From: Minisyncoccota bacterium
Lineage (GTDB): Bacteria; Patescibacteriota; Microgenomatia; UBA1400; PJMF01
Direction of reading: 5' to 3'
Assembly: GCA_029881675.1 (NCBI GenBank)
Contig: JAOUMD010000008.1
Span: forward strand, 1 to 39,418
Length of the DNA: 39,418 bases
In this document: one piece after another, positions 2,798 to 21,534 of the stretch
Layout of the letters: each line of letters starts with the position of its first letter
How positions within the stretch are numbered: position 1 is the first letter of the stretch
Program-made: the position numbers and the translations under genes
The notes under the pieces: generated by a model
What the model was told of the DNA's origin: nothing
Databases searched by the model: none
Seen by the model: only the letters and a program-made list of their open reading frames with translations

Positions 2798-4081
2798 TTA
2801 CTCAATAAATGTTAATGCAACACCAACCTTATCTGCACGACCTGTTCTACCAATACGGTGGATATAGTCCTCACGAGATTCTGGTAGATCATAGTTAATA
2901 ACGTGTGTAACATCATTAATATCTAATCCACGAGCGATCACGTCAGTAGCAATTAAAGCTTGTACTTGATCATTTCTAAATTGCTGTAAAGCTCTTTGTC
3001 TTTGACCTTGTGATTTATTACCATGAATAGCATTTACCTTAAGACCTCTATCTTGAAGTTCTCTAGTAATTTTTTCTGCACCTCTTTTGGTACGACCAAA
3101 TACTAAAACTTTATCAAAATTTTCTGTTCTTAAAAGATCATGTAAAACATCAATCTTTGATCTGCCTTTAATTTTAACAATTTCTTGTTGAACGTTTGCA
3201 GATGTATCACCAGTTTTAACTGAGATGGAGATTGGGTCTACTAAGAAACCTTTCATGATTTGTCTTACTCTGTCAGTCATAGTGGCTGAGAAGAATAATG
3301 ATTGTCTATCACGTGGTAAGGCATCAATGATTTCTCTAATTTCGTGCACAAAGCCCATATCTAACATACGGTCTACTTCGTCTAAAACTATATTAGTGAA
3401 TTCATGGAATTTGAGTTTTCCTCTTTGGTTAAGGTCTTTGATTCTTCCTGGAGTTCCTATTACAAAATGTTGTCCTCTTCTTAAAGAATCGATTTGACGA
3501 CCTATTGAAGATCCTCCGATAACCAAGGTTGAGAAAACTCTCATACCTTCTGAAAATGATCTTAATTCATCCTTAACTTGGAGAGCGAGCTCTCTAGTAG
3601 GGGCAATAATTAATACCTTTTCATTACTGTTGTTTATAACTTTATCAAGTAAAGGAATTAAAAAGGCTGCTGTTTTACCAGTACCAGTGTTTGCAATACC
3701 AACAACGTCTCTTCCTTCAACAATGTGAGGGATGATTTGATCTTGGATTGGAGTAGGGGTTACATAACCTCTAGCTGCAATATTTTCTTTTACTTTATCA
3801 GAAATATCAAAATCATTAAATTGATGAGTTGCTTGATATTCTTCTTTTTCTACTATTTCTGGTTTATTTAACCCAGCTTGAATAATCATTCTTGTTGGAT
3901 CAAAAGTAGCTTGGTTGAAGCCTCCACGACCTCCACGGCCACGGTTACCACAACCACGGTTACCAAAACTAGAACCACCGCGAGAAGAAAAACTTCTTCC
4001 ACCACCGGAATTTCTAGAACGGAAATTAGAGCCTCCGCTGCGGCTATTAGAATTAGAAAATGAGCGATTTGAATTTCGCAT
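2798..4081 (-). CDS. DEAD-box ATP-dependent RNA helicase with RG-rich N-terminus
   Basis: A 427-aa RNA helicase that unwinds RNA duplexes, probably in ribosome assembly or mRNA decay. Motifs in order: Q motif (TPTPIQDQ, about 90), Walker A ANTGTGKT, PTRELALQ, TPGR, DEVD in place of DEAD, SAT, then in domain 2 ATDVIARGLDI and HRIGRTGR. Residues 1-55 are Ser/Asn/Gly/Arg-rich with RGG-like repeats, an RNA-binding tail that most bacterial DEAD proteins carry at the C-terminus. The protein ends only about 11 residues after motif VI, so the usual basic C-terminal extension is missing. A good promoter lies about 140 nt upstream, giving a long 5' leader as in cold-shock-regulated helicases (inference). 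Confidence 0.93.
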   Translation of the reverse strand: MRNSNRSFSNSNSRSGGSNFRSRNSGGGRSFSSRGGSSFGNRGCGNRGRGGRGGFNQATFDPTRMIIQAGLNKPEIVEKEEYQATHQFNDFDISDKVKENIAARGYVTPTPIQDQIIPHIVEGRDVVGIANTGTGKTAAFLIPLLDKVINNSNEKVLIIAPTRELALQVKDELRSFSEGMRVFSTLVIGGSSIGRQIDSLRRGQHFVIGTPGRIKDLNQRGKLKFHEFTNIVLDEVDRMLDMGFVHEIREIIDALPRDRQSLFFSATMTDRVRQIMKGFLVDPISISVKTGDTSANVQQEIVKIKGRSKIDVLHDLLRTENFDKVLVFGRTKRGAEKITRELQDRGLKVNAIHGNKSQGQRQRALQQFRNDQVQALIATDVIARGLDINDVTHVINYDLPESREDYIHRIGRTGRADKVGVALTFIE

Positions 4082-4221
4082 AATATACTTCTTTCTTTAA
4101 TAAATAACGTAGGTTAAAGACAAGAAGCAGATACGATTAAGGGAAATGTGTATATTCTCAAAAATTAAGATTCGTGCTTAAACCCAGGTTGAGAGATATA
4201 GTTATCAATCAACAGGGTGGT

Positions 4222-4250
4222 AGTATAGCATAAATTGAAATAGATAGCAA
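4222..4250 (-). promoter_or_regulatory. sigma70-type promoter of the helicase gene
   Basis: On the minus strand, -35 TTGCTA (4245-4250), a 17-nt spacer and -10 TATACT (4222-4227). Transcription would start near 4215, leaving a leader of about 135 nt before the ATG at 4081. No ORF of note lies in the leader. The stretch 4082-4365 holds only this promoter, the leader and the opposing antiporter promoter. Confidence 0.65.
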
Positions 4251-18584: not shown

Positions 18585-18917
18585 ATGCTCAGCCCATTTG
18601 CCAAACAAGTCCATAAATTACTTAGAACCGTCCCAAAGGGAAGGGTAACTACCTATAAAGAATTAGCTAATGCGATGGATACCAAAGCATTTCGTGCTAT
18701 TGGTCAAGTGATGAGATCGAATCCTAATGCACCTAATACCCCTTGTCATAGAGTAGTTTCAGCTAATGGAACCTTAGGTGGTTTTATGGGAGAAAAGAGT
18801 GGACCTAAGGTACTTAAAAAGATTCGGTTACTTAAAAAAGAAGGTACGCTTGTTCATGGGAATAGAGTAGTGGACTTTAATAGGAAATTATATAAGTTTC
18901 AAAATCCTAATAGATAG
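18585..18917 (+). CDS. O6-alkylguanine-DNA alkyltransferase-like protein (MGMT C-terminal domain only)
   Basis: A 110-aa protein equal to the DNA-binding/active-site domain of MGMT/Ogt. It contains VPKGRVTTYKELA (recognition helix region), the invariant Asn-to-Pro segment NTPCHRVV with the acceptor Cys, and GGFMGEKSGPKVLKKIRLL. The N-terminal RNase-H-like domain of full-length MGMT is absent, but stand-alone C-terminal forms are common. Because PCHRV is intact it is expected to be a real suicide methyltransferase and not an Atl protein (which has Trp in place of Cys). Confidence 0.93.
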   Translation: MLSPFAKQVHKLLRTVPKGRVTTYKELANAMDTKAFRAIGQVMRSNPNAPNTPCHRVVSANGTLGGFMGEKSGPKVLKKIRLLKKEGTLVHGNRVVDFNRKLYKFQNPNR

Positions 18918-18922
18918 TAGTG

Positions 18923-18928
18923 TATAAT
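18923..18928 (+). promoter_or_regulatory. -10 box of the attenuated operon
   Basis: TATAAT ends 7 nt before the ATG of the leader peptide at 18936, so transcription should start at or next to that ATG: a leaderless leader peptide. Confidence 0.65.
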
Positions 18929-18935
18929 CAAAACA

Positions 18936-19016
18936 ATGCAAATTAGAAATACTTTTTACTATATGTGGCTTTTCAACCTCACAGGGAGGAGTATTTCTAG
19001 TGCACTAAAGATGTAA
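18936..19016 (+). CDS. 26-codon aromatic-rich leader peptide
   Basis: A short ORF whose codons 7-13 read F-Y-Y-M-W-L-F. It ends in TAA at 19014 before the terminator. The position of the Tyr/Trp codons (18957-18968), the segments that follow and the near-absence of upstream mRNA all fit a transcription-attenuation leader, not a functional protein. It is not homologous to any leader peptide I can name. Confidence 0.7.
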   Translation: MQIRNTFYYMWLFNLTGRSISSALKM

Positions 19017-19063
19017 AAATAAAAAATAAAAGAAATACCACCTCCCAAACGGGAGGTTTTTTT
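18977..19063 (+). promoter_or_regulatory. four-segment transcription attenuator
   Basis: Segment 1 CCTC (18977-18980) can pair with segment 2 (GAGG within 18984-18997). Segment 2, GGGAGGAGTATTTC, is also complementary over about 13 bp (one interruption) to segment 3, GAAATACCACCTCCC (19032-19046). Segment 3 pairs with segment 4 GGGAGGT (19051-19057) to give a terminator with a 4-nt loop and seven T. A ribosome stalled at the Tyr/Trp codons would mask segment 1 and free segment 2, preventing termination. A GAAAGGA ribosome site and the ATG at 19082 follow. Confidence 0.75.
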
Positions 19064-19081
19064 ATATCTAGAAAGGACAAT

Positions 19082-19486
19082 ATGTCAAACATTTTATTTA
19101 TCTGCCAAGCAAACATTGGTAGAAGTCAAATGGCTGAAGCATTTTTTAATCATATGACTAATTCAAGACAAGCCACTAGTGCCGCTTGTGAGGATTTTAT
19201 TCAGAAATATAACGGTAAACCTACCAGAGAAATTATTAACTCAATGAAAGAAGTCGGGATTAACATGGAAAGACAAAGAATGAAGCTACTTACTCCAGCA
19301 ATGGTGAAGTGGGCAGATCAAATCATTGTTTTGTGTGATCAGAAATTTTGTCCTGACTTTGTTTTGAAAAATAGTGACAAAGTTTTAATTAAAACCGTTG
19401 AAGATCCACATGATAAAGATTCTCAATCAATTGCAAAAATACGAGACCAAATTCAACAAATAGTAATAAATATTATTGAAATATAA
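19082..19486 (+). CDS. ArsC/LMW phosphatase-like protein
   Basis: A 134-aa protein of the LMW-PTP/arsenate reductase (thioredoxin-coupled) fold. The P-loop is C8-QANIG-R14-S and the acid motif is VEDPHDKD. Cys85 and Cys90 (LCDQKFC) sit near the positions of the redox Cys pair in ArsC enzymes (there C-x6-C), so it could be an arsenate reductase or a phosphatase. It is the first gene after the attenuator and ends 2 nt before the M20 peptidase start, so the two are coupled. A second LMW-PTP-like gene lies at 11827. Confidence 0.85.
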   Translation: MSNILFICQANIGRSQMAEAFFNHMTNSRQATSAACEDFIQKYNGKPTREIINSMKEVGINMERQRMKLLTPAMVKWADQIIVLCDQKFCPDFVLKNSDKVLIKTVEDPHDKDSQSIAKIRDQIQQIVINIIEI

Positions 19487-19488
19487 AT

Positions 19489-20598
19489 ATGAAAAAACAA
19501 TTAATAAATAACTTAACTAAATTAGTTGCATGTCAGTCAGTGACAGGCAACCAAAAAGAAATAAAAAAGGCCTTACAAATAATTGATAAAGAGCTACAAC
19601 AAATCTTTCCTTTTATAAAAAAGGAATACGAAAAAAATGATGTTCAATCAGTAGTTTGGTTAACAAAAGATACTCTAAAACCAGACATTATTTTAAATGC
19701 TCATGTTGATGTTGTTCCTGCTTCTAAAGGGATGTTTAAGGTAAAAATAAACAATGGGAAAATATTAGGTAGAGGTGTTTCTGATATGAAATTTTCTATT
19801 GCTAGCTTTATTGAAGTAGTCAGAGAATTAAATAAAGAAAATAAGCTGAAAGATTTATCTCTCGGAATTATGATTACTGGTGATGAAGAAGTCGGTGGTT
19901 TCAATGGGGTAGGGTACTTAGTAAATGAGATTGGATACAGACCAAAATTAGTCATCATTCCTGATGGTGCTGATAATTGGAAAATATCAGAAAAAGCCAA
20001 AGGTGGTTGTTGGGTTCAATTATCTACTACTGGAAAAAGTGCTCATGCTTCTAAACCATGGGAAGGAGTTTCTGCCACTGAAAAATTAATAGATGTTTTA
20101 TCTTGGATAAAAAATAAATATCCTAATCCTACCAAGGATATTCATGTCACAAGTATAAACATTGGAAAAATTAGTGGTGGGACTGCTTTAAACCAAGTGG
20201 CTAATCAAGCCCAAGCTGACCTTGATATTCGCTACACTAAAGAACTGACTGCTGATGAAATTATAACAAGCATTAATAAGAAATTTCCTAATGTTAAAAC
20301 AAAAAAACTTTTGGAGAAACCATTCTTTGGAGTAGATAAAAATCACCCAGCAATACAAAGATGGGTAAACCTAATTAAAGATATTCATGACCAAAAACAT
20401 CCAAATGAGAATATCTTTATTGCAGAAAGTGGTAGTGCTGATCACCACTACTTTTCTGAACATGGTATTCCAGTACTACTCTCAAAACCAAGTGGAGGAT
20501 TAATTCATACAGAAGATGAGTGGTTAGATGAAGAAGATTTCTATTTATATACTAAGTTACTGACAAAGTATGTAAAAGAAGTTATCAGTAATTCTTGA
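19489..20598 (+). CDS. M20-family metallopeptidase/deacylase
   Basis: A 369-aa enzyme of the M20 family (ArgE/DapE/CPG2-like), dinuclear zinc. Metal-site motifs: LNAHVDVVP (His), GRGVSDMK (bridging Asp), TGDEEVGG (catalytic and metal Glu), and the late GGLIHTEDEW (His). A dimerisation lid domain lies in between (GKSAHASKPWEG). Likely substrates are N-acyl amino acids or small peptides. Its position in an operon under an aromatic-codon attenuator suggests release of amino acids during starvation (inference). Confidence 0.92.
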   Translation: MKKQLINNLTKLVACQSVTGNQKEIKKALQIIDKELQQIFPFIKKEYEKNDVQSVVWLTKDTLKPDIILNAHVDVVPASKGMFKVKINNGKILGRGVSDMKFSIASFIEVVRELNKENKLKDLSLGIMITGDEEVGGFNGVGYLVNEIGYRPKLVIIPDGADNWKISEKAKGGCWVQLSTTGKSAHASKPWEGVSATEKLIDVLSWIKNKYPNPTKDIHVTSINIGKISGGTALNQVANQAQADLDIRYTKELTADEIITSINKKFPNVKTKKLLEKPFFGVDKNHPAIQRWVNLIKDIHDQKHPNENIFIAESGSADHHYFSEHGIPVLLSKPSGGLIHTEDEWLDEEDFYLYTKLLTKYVKEVISNS

Positions 20599-20685: not shown

Positions 20686-20691
20686 TTGGGT

Positions 20692-21534
20692 ATGGAAACA
20701 AAACAAAAATTAGTTACAACTAAAATTGCAATTTTTCAAAAAAATGAAGTGCGAAAGGTTATTTATAACAATGAGTGGTGGTTTTCTGTTGCAGATGTAG
20801 TGCAAGCACTAACAGATAGTGTTGATGTAAAACAATATATAAAGAGAATGAGACAGCGTGATTTAGAAATAAATTCCTACTGGGGTACAATCTGTACCCC
20901 CCTTGAAATGAAAGCTAAAGATGGTAAAAAAAGAAAAATAACTAGCGCCAATACCGAAGGTATCTTTCGCATTATTCAATCCATCACCTCTCCCAAAGCA
21001 GAGCCTTTCAAACGTTGGTTAGCAAAAGTTGGATATGAAAGAGTGCAAGAAATAGAGGATCCTGAGTTAGCTACAAAAAGAACAAGAATGCTTTATAAAG
21101 CAAAAGGTTATTCTGATGGATGGATTGAAAAAAGGTTAAGAGGCATAGTCATACGTGAAGAGTTGACCGATCAGTGGCAAGAAAGAGGAGCTAACAACAA
21201 AAAGGACTATGCAATCTTAACTGCTGAAATATCCAAAGCAACTTTTGGAGTAACTCCTAATCAATATAAGAAATTAAAAAAACTAGATAGAGAGAACTTA
21301 AGAGATCATATGAATGATTTTGAGTTAATTTTTAATATGTTGGGGGAACGTGCTACTACAGAAATTCATCGCAATGAAAATTCACAAGGTGTATCAAAAC
21401 TAAAAAGTGATGCAAAAGCTGGTGGAGATATTGCTGGTGGAGCTAGAAAAGAGTTAGAAAAAAAACTTGGTCGCTCTGTAGTTTCAGAGGAAAATTATTT
21501 GGAAAAGAAGGAAAAAGAAAAACAGTTAAATTAG
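20692..21534 (+). CDS. BRO-N/DinD-like protein
   Basis: A 280-aa protein with an N-terminal BRO-N domain (about 8-105): AIFQKNEVRKVIYNNEWWFS, VADVVQALTDS, and FRIIQSI...PFKRWLAKVGYER. The C-terminal part (ELTDQWQERG, DYAILTAEISKATFGVTPNQ, YKKLK) matches the DinD/phage-antirepressor-like C-terminal domain. Related proteins are phage antirepressors or SOS-induced DinD. ATG 20692 is used because of the promoter spacing; a TTG 6 nt upstream is also in frame. It lies directly outside boundary repeat E and is probably an accessory gene. Confidence 0.85.
   Translation: METKQKLVTTKIAIFQKNEVRKVIYNNEWWFSVADVVQALTDSVDVKQYIKRMRQRDLEINSYWGTICTPLEMKAKDGKKRKITSANTEGIFRIIQSITSPKAEPFKRWLAKVGYERVQEIEDPELATKRTRMLYKAKGYSDGWIEKRLRGIVIREELTDQWQERGANNKKDYAILTAEISKATFGVTPNQYKKLKKLDRENLRDHMNDFELIFNMLGERATTEIHRNENSQGVSKLKSDAKAGGDIAGGARKELEKKLGRSVVSEENYLEKKEKEKQLN

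Follow-up and report, generated by a model that had tools for sequence, protein, structure and literature searches.

The 39,418-nucleotide stretch of DNA analysed here (hereafter the window) contains a short interval between an alkyltransferase-like gene and an operon for an ArsC-like protein and an M20 metallopeptidase/deacylase. This interval raises the question of whether the operon is switched by translation of a small leader peptide and, if so, which amino acids are sensed and for what purpose. Since few Patescibacteria can be cultured, hardly anything is known of how they regulate their genes. The 1.08 Mb genome is, by its RpoB placement, a member of the Microgenomatia: it shares a group, supported at 100/100, with the same-genus PAT3, other class members, Woesebacteria and Levybacteria, and Saccharibacteria, Parcubacteria and Buchananbacteria fall outside this grouping. 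Candidatus Chazhemtobacterium aquaticus Ch65 belongs to the same class, in order UBA1400 (PMC7143001). The features of the locus are as follows.

18585-18917, plus strand: upstream gene, alkyltransferase-like DNA_binding_1 protein (ogt family, from family search), outside the element
18923-18928, plus strand: -10 box TATAAT, with 7 nt between the box and the leader ATG (18936)
18936-19016, plus strand: leader peptide ORF of 26 codons, MQIRNTFYYMWLFNLTGRSISSALKM and stop, from ORF reading; leaderless mRNA probable
18937-18956, plus strand: segment 1, overlapping the start codon in part; its partner is segment 2 with the adjoining 3′ bases (18987-19004)
18954-18974, plus strand: sensor codons Phe-Tyr-Tyr-Met-Trp-Leu-Phe, between segments 1 and 2, from leader translation
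18984-18999, plus strand: segment 2, GGGAGGAGTATTTCTA, inside the leader ORF
19031-19046, plus strand: segment 3, AGAAATACCACCTCCC, which pairs with segment 2 (antiterminator) or, through its 3′ part, with segment 4
19040-19063, plus strand: intrinsic terminator ACCTCCC-AAAC-GGGAGGT (segments 3:4) with T7, -10.3 kcal/mol
19051-19057, plus strand: segment 4
19082-19486, plus strand: ArsC-like/low-molecular-weight phosphatase family protein, 134 aa, intact CX5R motif (Pfam PF01451, 62 bits)
19489-20598, plus strand: M20 family metallopeptidase/deacylase, 369 aa, metal-ligand residues kept (Pfam PF01546 and PF07687)

The second gene of the operon qualifies as an M20 metallopeptidase by its Pfam M20 and dimerisation domains and its metal ligands, with H72, D74, D99, E133, E134, D159 and H340 as invariant residues, and it scores below the NCBIfam equivalog cut-offs for DapE and ArgE. 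The ArsC-like protein misses every NCBIfam arsenate reductase cut-off (48 bits against 215; 44 against 174), and on this curated score it does not qualify as a thioredoxin-type ArsC arsenate reductase. A BRO-N domain protein lies downstream of the operon (20686-21534); this domain family is frequent in phages and mobile elements.

The whole element, from the -10 box through T7, spans about 18923-19064. An earlier note on this DNA had placed a TATAAT box 7 nt before the ATG of a 26-codon ORF carrying F-Y-Y-M-W-L-F, followed by segments 2 to 4 and a T7 tract, and our analysis confirms the leader, segments and terminator where it described them, save for segment 1. The tetramer CCTC, which it had taken as segment 1, gives only four pairs and was dropped; the true segment 1 lies at the start of the ORF itself, where 18944-18953 matches 18990-18999 of segment 2 in an unbroken run of 10 of 10 Watson-Crick pairs. 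The predicted fold of the whole leader reaches -36.8 kcal/mol (z = -5.3), with none of 200 dinucleotide shuffles as good. Its minimum-energy state, in which 18937-18940 pairs with 19001-19004 and 18943-18956 with 18987-19000, combines the 1:2 helix (ORF 5′ end with the GGGAGGAGTATTTCTAGTGCA region) and the 3:4 intrinsic terminator. When the 5′ part is masked, mimicking a stalled ribosome, GGGAGG.GTATTTCT pairs with AGAAATAC.CCTCCC as the 2:3 antiterminator, at -16.0 kcal/mol against a shuffled mean of -4.9 and with 0 of 300 shuffles as low. Folding thus bears out the proposal that the 1:2, 2:3 and 3:4 pairings are mutually exclusive.

Three features expected of a trp-type attenuator are present: mutually exclusive predicted helices ending in an intrinsic terminator, a short ORF overlapping the switch (its stop codon lies about 24 nt upstream of the terminator stem), and a cluster of regulatory codons, with aromatic residues at five of the seven sensor positions. 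Among 54 comparable short ORFs of the window, the aromatic run occurs in this leader only. Taken alone it is weak evidence, being matched by 2.7% of stop-free shuffles. Counting against the reading, no -35 hexamer can be recognised in the promoter, so that readthrough from ogt is possible.

We interpret the element as a ribosome-mediated transcription attenuator of the trp/his/phe type, a leaderless sensor of several aromatic amino acids that controls peptide scavenging, and assign this reading a probability of roughly 0.8; it rests on sequence, without a transcript, ribosome profile or reporter. RNA polymerase would start at or near the leader ATG, an inferred start, and the ribosome would load the leader from its 5′ end without a Shine-Dalgarno sequence. 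When charged Phe, Tyr or Trp tRNA is short, the ribosome is inferred to stall on F-Y-Y-M-W-L-F, covering segment 1 and freeing segment 2; the 2:3 helix would then form, block the 3:4 terminator and allow transcription of the ArsC-like/M20 operon. When the aromatic tRNAs are charged, the ribosome would pass segment 2 to the stop codon; alternatively, translation may fail to start. In either case the 1:2 helix would form and lock the start codon, 3:4 would form, and transcription would stop near 19063. Readthrough on uncharged tRNA, and with it the direction of the response, is an inference, as is the presumed purpose, which would be to free aromatic amino acids for an auxotroph by cleaving peptides or acyl-amino acids.

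The same-genus ArsC-like ortholog, 67% identical to the window protein, provides the closest comparison. It is preceded by TATACT, 7 nt and then the leader MQLANRLHQIWYFTFKGGSVFVA with its stop codon, and has a 1:2 helix, a 2:3 hairpin of -16.3 (0 of 300 shuffles) and a terminator, all in entirely different sequence. At the position matching the sensor codons of the window, this leader reads His..Trp-Tyr-Phe..Phe. We observe a helix equivalent to 1:2, in different sequence, in three genomes (G001, G036, G017). The earlier note had proposed a comparison of homologous leaders, with loss of the leader where the terminator is kept as grounds for refutation; this check did not refute the proposal, either within the genus or for the M20 operons found in other families. 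This recurrence of one layout in unrelated sequence, before the same-genus ortholog and before M20/tRNA-synthetase operons elsewhere, argues against chance.

A search of the class extended this comparison, using a pattern that covers segments 2-3-4 only. It matches 176 of 374 Microgenomatia genomes, and the reversed pattern matches 24; in a phylum-wide sample it matches 7 of 20 genomes of the class versus 28 of 220 others, some of the latter chance-like and some resembling real Leu/Ile leaders. Leaders were called from the -10 box and ORF alone. Those with Cys codons precede cysteine synthase/CBS (cysK) and cysS, those with Thr codons thrS, with Lys codons lysS, with Ile codons ileS and citramalate synthase, with Phe codons pheA and pheS, with F/Y/W codons DAHP synthase, and with Ser codons serA/serB. 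Two aspartokinase leaders (L248, L249) mix Lys and Thr codons (TKKTTKTAF, TKKTAKATF); Lys and Thr are the two end products of the aspartokinase pathway. Across the class, as judged by this codon match, the regulated genes serve the amino acid presumably sensed. For 19 pairs of leader and NCBIfam-annotated next gene, the mean cognate fraction is 0.23 versus 0.09 when permuted, with 0 of 20,000 permutations as high, and leaders at odds with their gene (alaS in L047, valS in L240) were kept in this test. When segments were exchanged between 85 class members, pairing in both 1:2 and 2:3 was poorer than with the native partners (KS p about 1e-8).

The class also bears on how the leader peptide is translated. 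With promoters picked on -35/-10 alone in 68 class attenuators, the ATG lies 6-9 nt past the -10 box in 35, against about 6 expected, and an SD-like tetramer is found in 0 of 38 class leaders. This spacing peak and the lack of SD sequences make leaderless translation likely, supporting the leaderless leader peptide that had been suggested for the window, where the start site is unmapped. A second ATG peak lies exactly 11 nt past the -10 box. The comparative evidence from the ortholog, the M20 operons and this set backs the trp-type logic first proposed, and shows the window element to be one of a class-wide set of leaderless attenuators and not a one-off.

Several further loci are recorded in their own right. 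Genes for (R)-S-adenosylmethionine hydrolase (L035, L217, L254) follow Met-containing leaders such as SVMMDMM, which suggests, from sequence, a link between SAM hydrolysis and methionine supply. Genes of the amino-acid racemase family (asp_race-like) lie behind Trp/Tyr/Phe-codon leaders in three genomes (L146, L277, L280). The leader of a HisC-like aminotransferase (L244, G360:C26; ..TNAYYWHHSSLR..) lacks an ATG: what stands 6 nt past its TACAAT is ATA, which would mean a start at AUA or else a defective leader, and an ORF similar to the BRO-N protein of the window comes after this aminotransferase. In the window genome itself, two tandem aromatic leader-terminator units (LYFMFLK; NNFYTSMFNLMYL) at 3990-4235 (L003, G000:C22) precede a 185-aa protein without a Pfam match and a HisC-like aminotransferase.

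Which gene of the window operon carries the aromatic signal is answered by its relatives. Among 34 bacterial ArsC-like homologs inspected, a leader was found only at the ortholog of the same genus (g1) and at two loci of genus g17 (L058, L068). The g17 leaders have the full attenuator layout and a conserved MQH...K.NGKKP peptide without an aromatic run; the ArsC-like gene is therefore not what the aromatic signal tracks, and for this gene the sensed amino acid is not fixed. The ArsC-like gene was thus weakened as bearer of the signal. M20 operons, in turn, are preceded by F/Y/W/H leaders in 11 genomes, which represent at least five families. In the order, the M20 gene stands alone behind an aromatic/His leader in G036 (CYALIWFM) and G012 (HHQTWY, broken by an assembly gap), follows hisS behind His/Tyr/Trp/Phe-rich leaders in G039, G062 and G064, and forms hisS-M20-tyrS in G056 (HHYYFH) and pheS-pheT-M20-tyrS in G080 (MFTNIYFTGFFFNFQK and stop). 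Elsewhere in the class, M20 leaders occur in G401 and, only weakly aromatic, in G381. Counting against the reading, one hisS-M20 operon, that of G061, has no leader. NCBIfam confirms hisS in G039, G064 and G056 and tyrS in G056; pheS, pheT and tyrS of G080 were named by reading of the sequence only, as was a GNAT-like partner protein. The closest M20 relatives (G057, G058; 47%) lie behind a putative dipeptide epimerase, and the G057 operon begins further upstream with tyrS and an aminotransferase, all likewise named by reading.

The median F/Y/W/H fraction is 0.29 in M20-operon leaders and 0.10 in 85 other attenuator leaders (p = 5.5e-5), a comparison limited by few M20 leaders and by kinship among some genomes. 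In the order, 87 of 88 genomes lack chorismate synthase, the window genome among them, and all 14 control genomes gave a match. The aromatic signal follows the M20 gene, with hisS, tyrS and pheST, and not the ArsC-like gene. The earlier proposal that the aromatic codons serve scavenging rather than biosynthesis gains comparative backing from this, but its signal tracks only one of the two genes. For the window operon itself, the tie to the sensed amino acids consists solely of the association of M20 with hisS/tyrS/pheST and of aromatic auxotrophy.

At a clearly lower likelihood, the attenuator may be real but not specific to aromatic residues, responding to general translation or to several amino acids (Met, Leu and Asn too), or acting through arrest by the leader peptide. 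The window leader also contains Met, Leu and Asn, the g17 ArsC-like orthologs have the conserved KxNGKKP leader, and relatives have His codons in their M20-operon leaders. Elsewhere in the class, however, codon runs match the gene, and M20-operon leaders across families have, by eye, no common peptide motif as expected of nascent-chain arrest, sharing only their F/Y/W/H content. A sensor of aromatic amino acids remains the preferred reading.

It is very improbable that the hairpin merely terminates ogt, with the short ORF and the other pairings arising by chance. The ogt gene does end at 18917, on the same strand and 122 nt upstream of the hairpin, and the aromatic run alone is matched by 2.7% of stop-free shuffles. 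The 2:3 pairing nevertheless outperforms all 300 shuffles and 1:2 has its ten contiguous pairs, and two genomes (G001, G036) keep hairpin and leader though their upstream gene is divergent, on which ground this reading was rejected. At the same-genus ortholog the upstream gene is divergent, so the terminator there does not serve it. Slighter still is the case for a small ligand or protein binding the leader RNA (riboswitch or T-box-like) with translation irrelevant: the leader folds well by itself, but its sequence is unconserved between relatives, unlike that of aptamers, its codon content follows the regulated gene, and no T-box or other Rfam leader family matched the window or 14 related loci at the covariance-model gathering score, for which reason an Rfam riboswitch or T-box was rejected. 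Both the plain terminator and the riboswitch are close to excluded.

Attenuators of the trp/his/phe type include trpL, pheL and hisL of enterobacteria and trp of Corynebacterium and Streptomyces (PMC1262725). The window element shares with them a leader ORF with regulatory codons, the 1:2/2:3/3:4 alternatives and an intrinsic terminator ahead of the first gene. It differs in lacking an SD sequence, in a segment 1 that contains the start codon, in apparently sensing several aromatic amino acids jointly, and in the control of peptidase and aminoacyl-tRNA synthetase genes in an auxotroph. In mycobacteria, leaderless polycysteine short ORFs have been tied to translation attenuation (Canestrari et al. 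2020, as cited in PMC13236596). The likeness lies in a leaderless leader peptide with a codon run for the amino acid concerned, and Cys versions also occur in Microgenomatia. Conserved intrinsic terminators are absent from the mycobacterial cys leaders (PMC1262725). The window element, in contrast, has a strong intrinsic terminator and an antiterminator. The trpL leader of Sinorhizobium meliloti is leaderless. It is a trp-type attenuator with a leader peptide, peTrpL (PMC7298713), and resembles the window element in this, but it senses a single amino acid and controls a biosynthesis operon in an alphaproteobacterium. The ilvB leaders of C. glutamicum and M. tuberculosis sense Leu, Val and Ile in one leader (PMC11857589, PMC13236596); such multi-amino-acid sensing is as proposed for the window, but is branched-chain and biosynthetic.

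Trp-type attenuation and leaderless leader peptides were thus each already known (PMC1262725; Canestrari et al. 2020 via PMC13236596). What is new is their combination: a leaderless leader whose start codon is locked in 1:2, several aromatics apparently read together, and scavenging and tRNA-charging genes as targets in an auxotroph. We found no report of attenuation in Patescibacteria, the candidate phyla radiation or Microgenomates in the open-access literature, and the class-wide set of switches is apparently undescribed so far.

We consider it reasonably probable that Microgenomatia, with many auxotrophs and only a few regulators known, manage a large share of their amino-acid economy by means of class-wide leaderless attenuators (Cys, Thr, Ile/Leu/Val, Ser, Met, Lys, aromatic/His), which in the present case have been turned to peptide scavenging and tRNA synthetases and not to biosynthesis. 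A switch that names its amino acid from sequence offers functional clues for uncharacterised genes such as the M20 enzyme and the ArsC-like protein, and reveals which amino acids auxotrophs run short of. Additionally, it points to leaderless translation as routine in the class, and could supply genetic tools for Patescibacteria with a naturally occurring inducible element.
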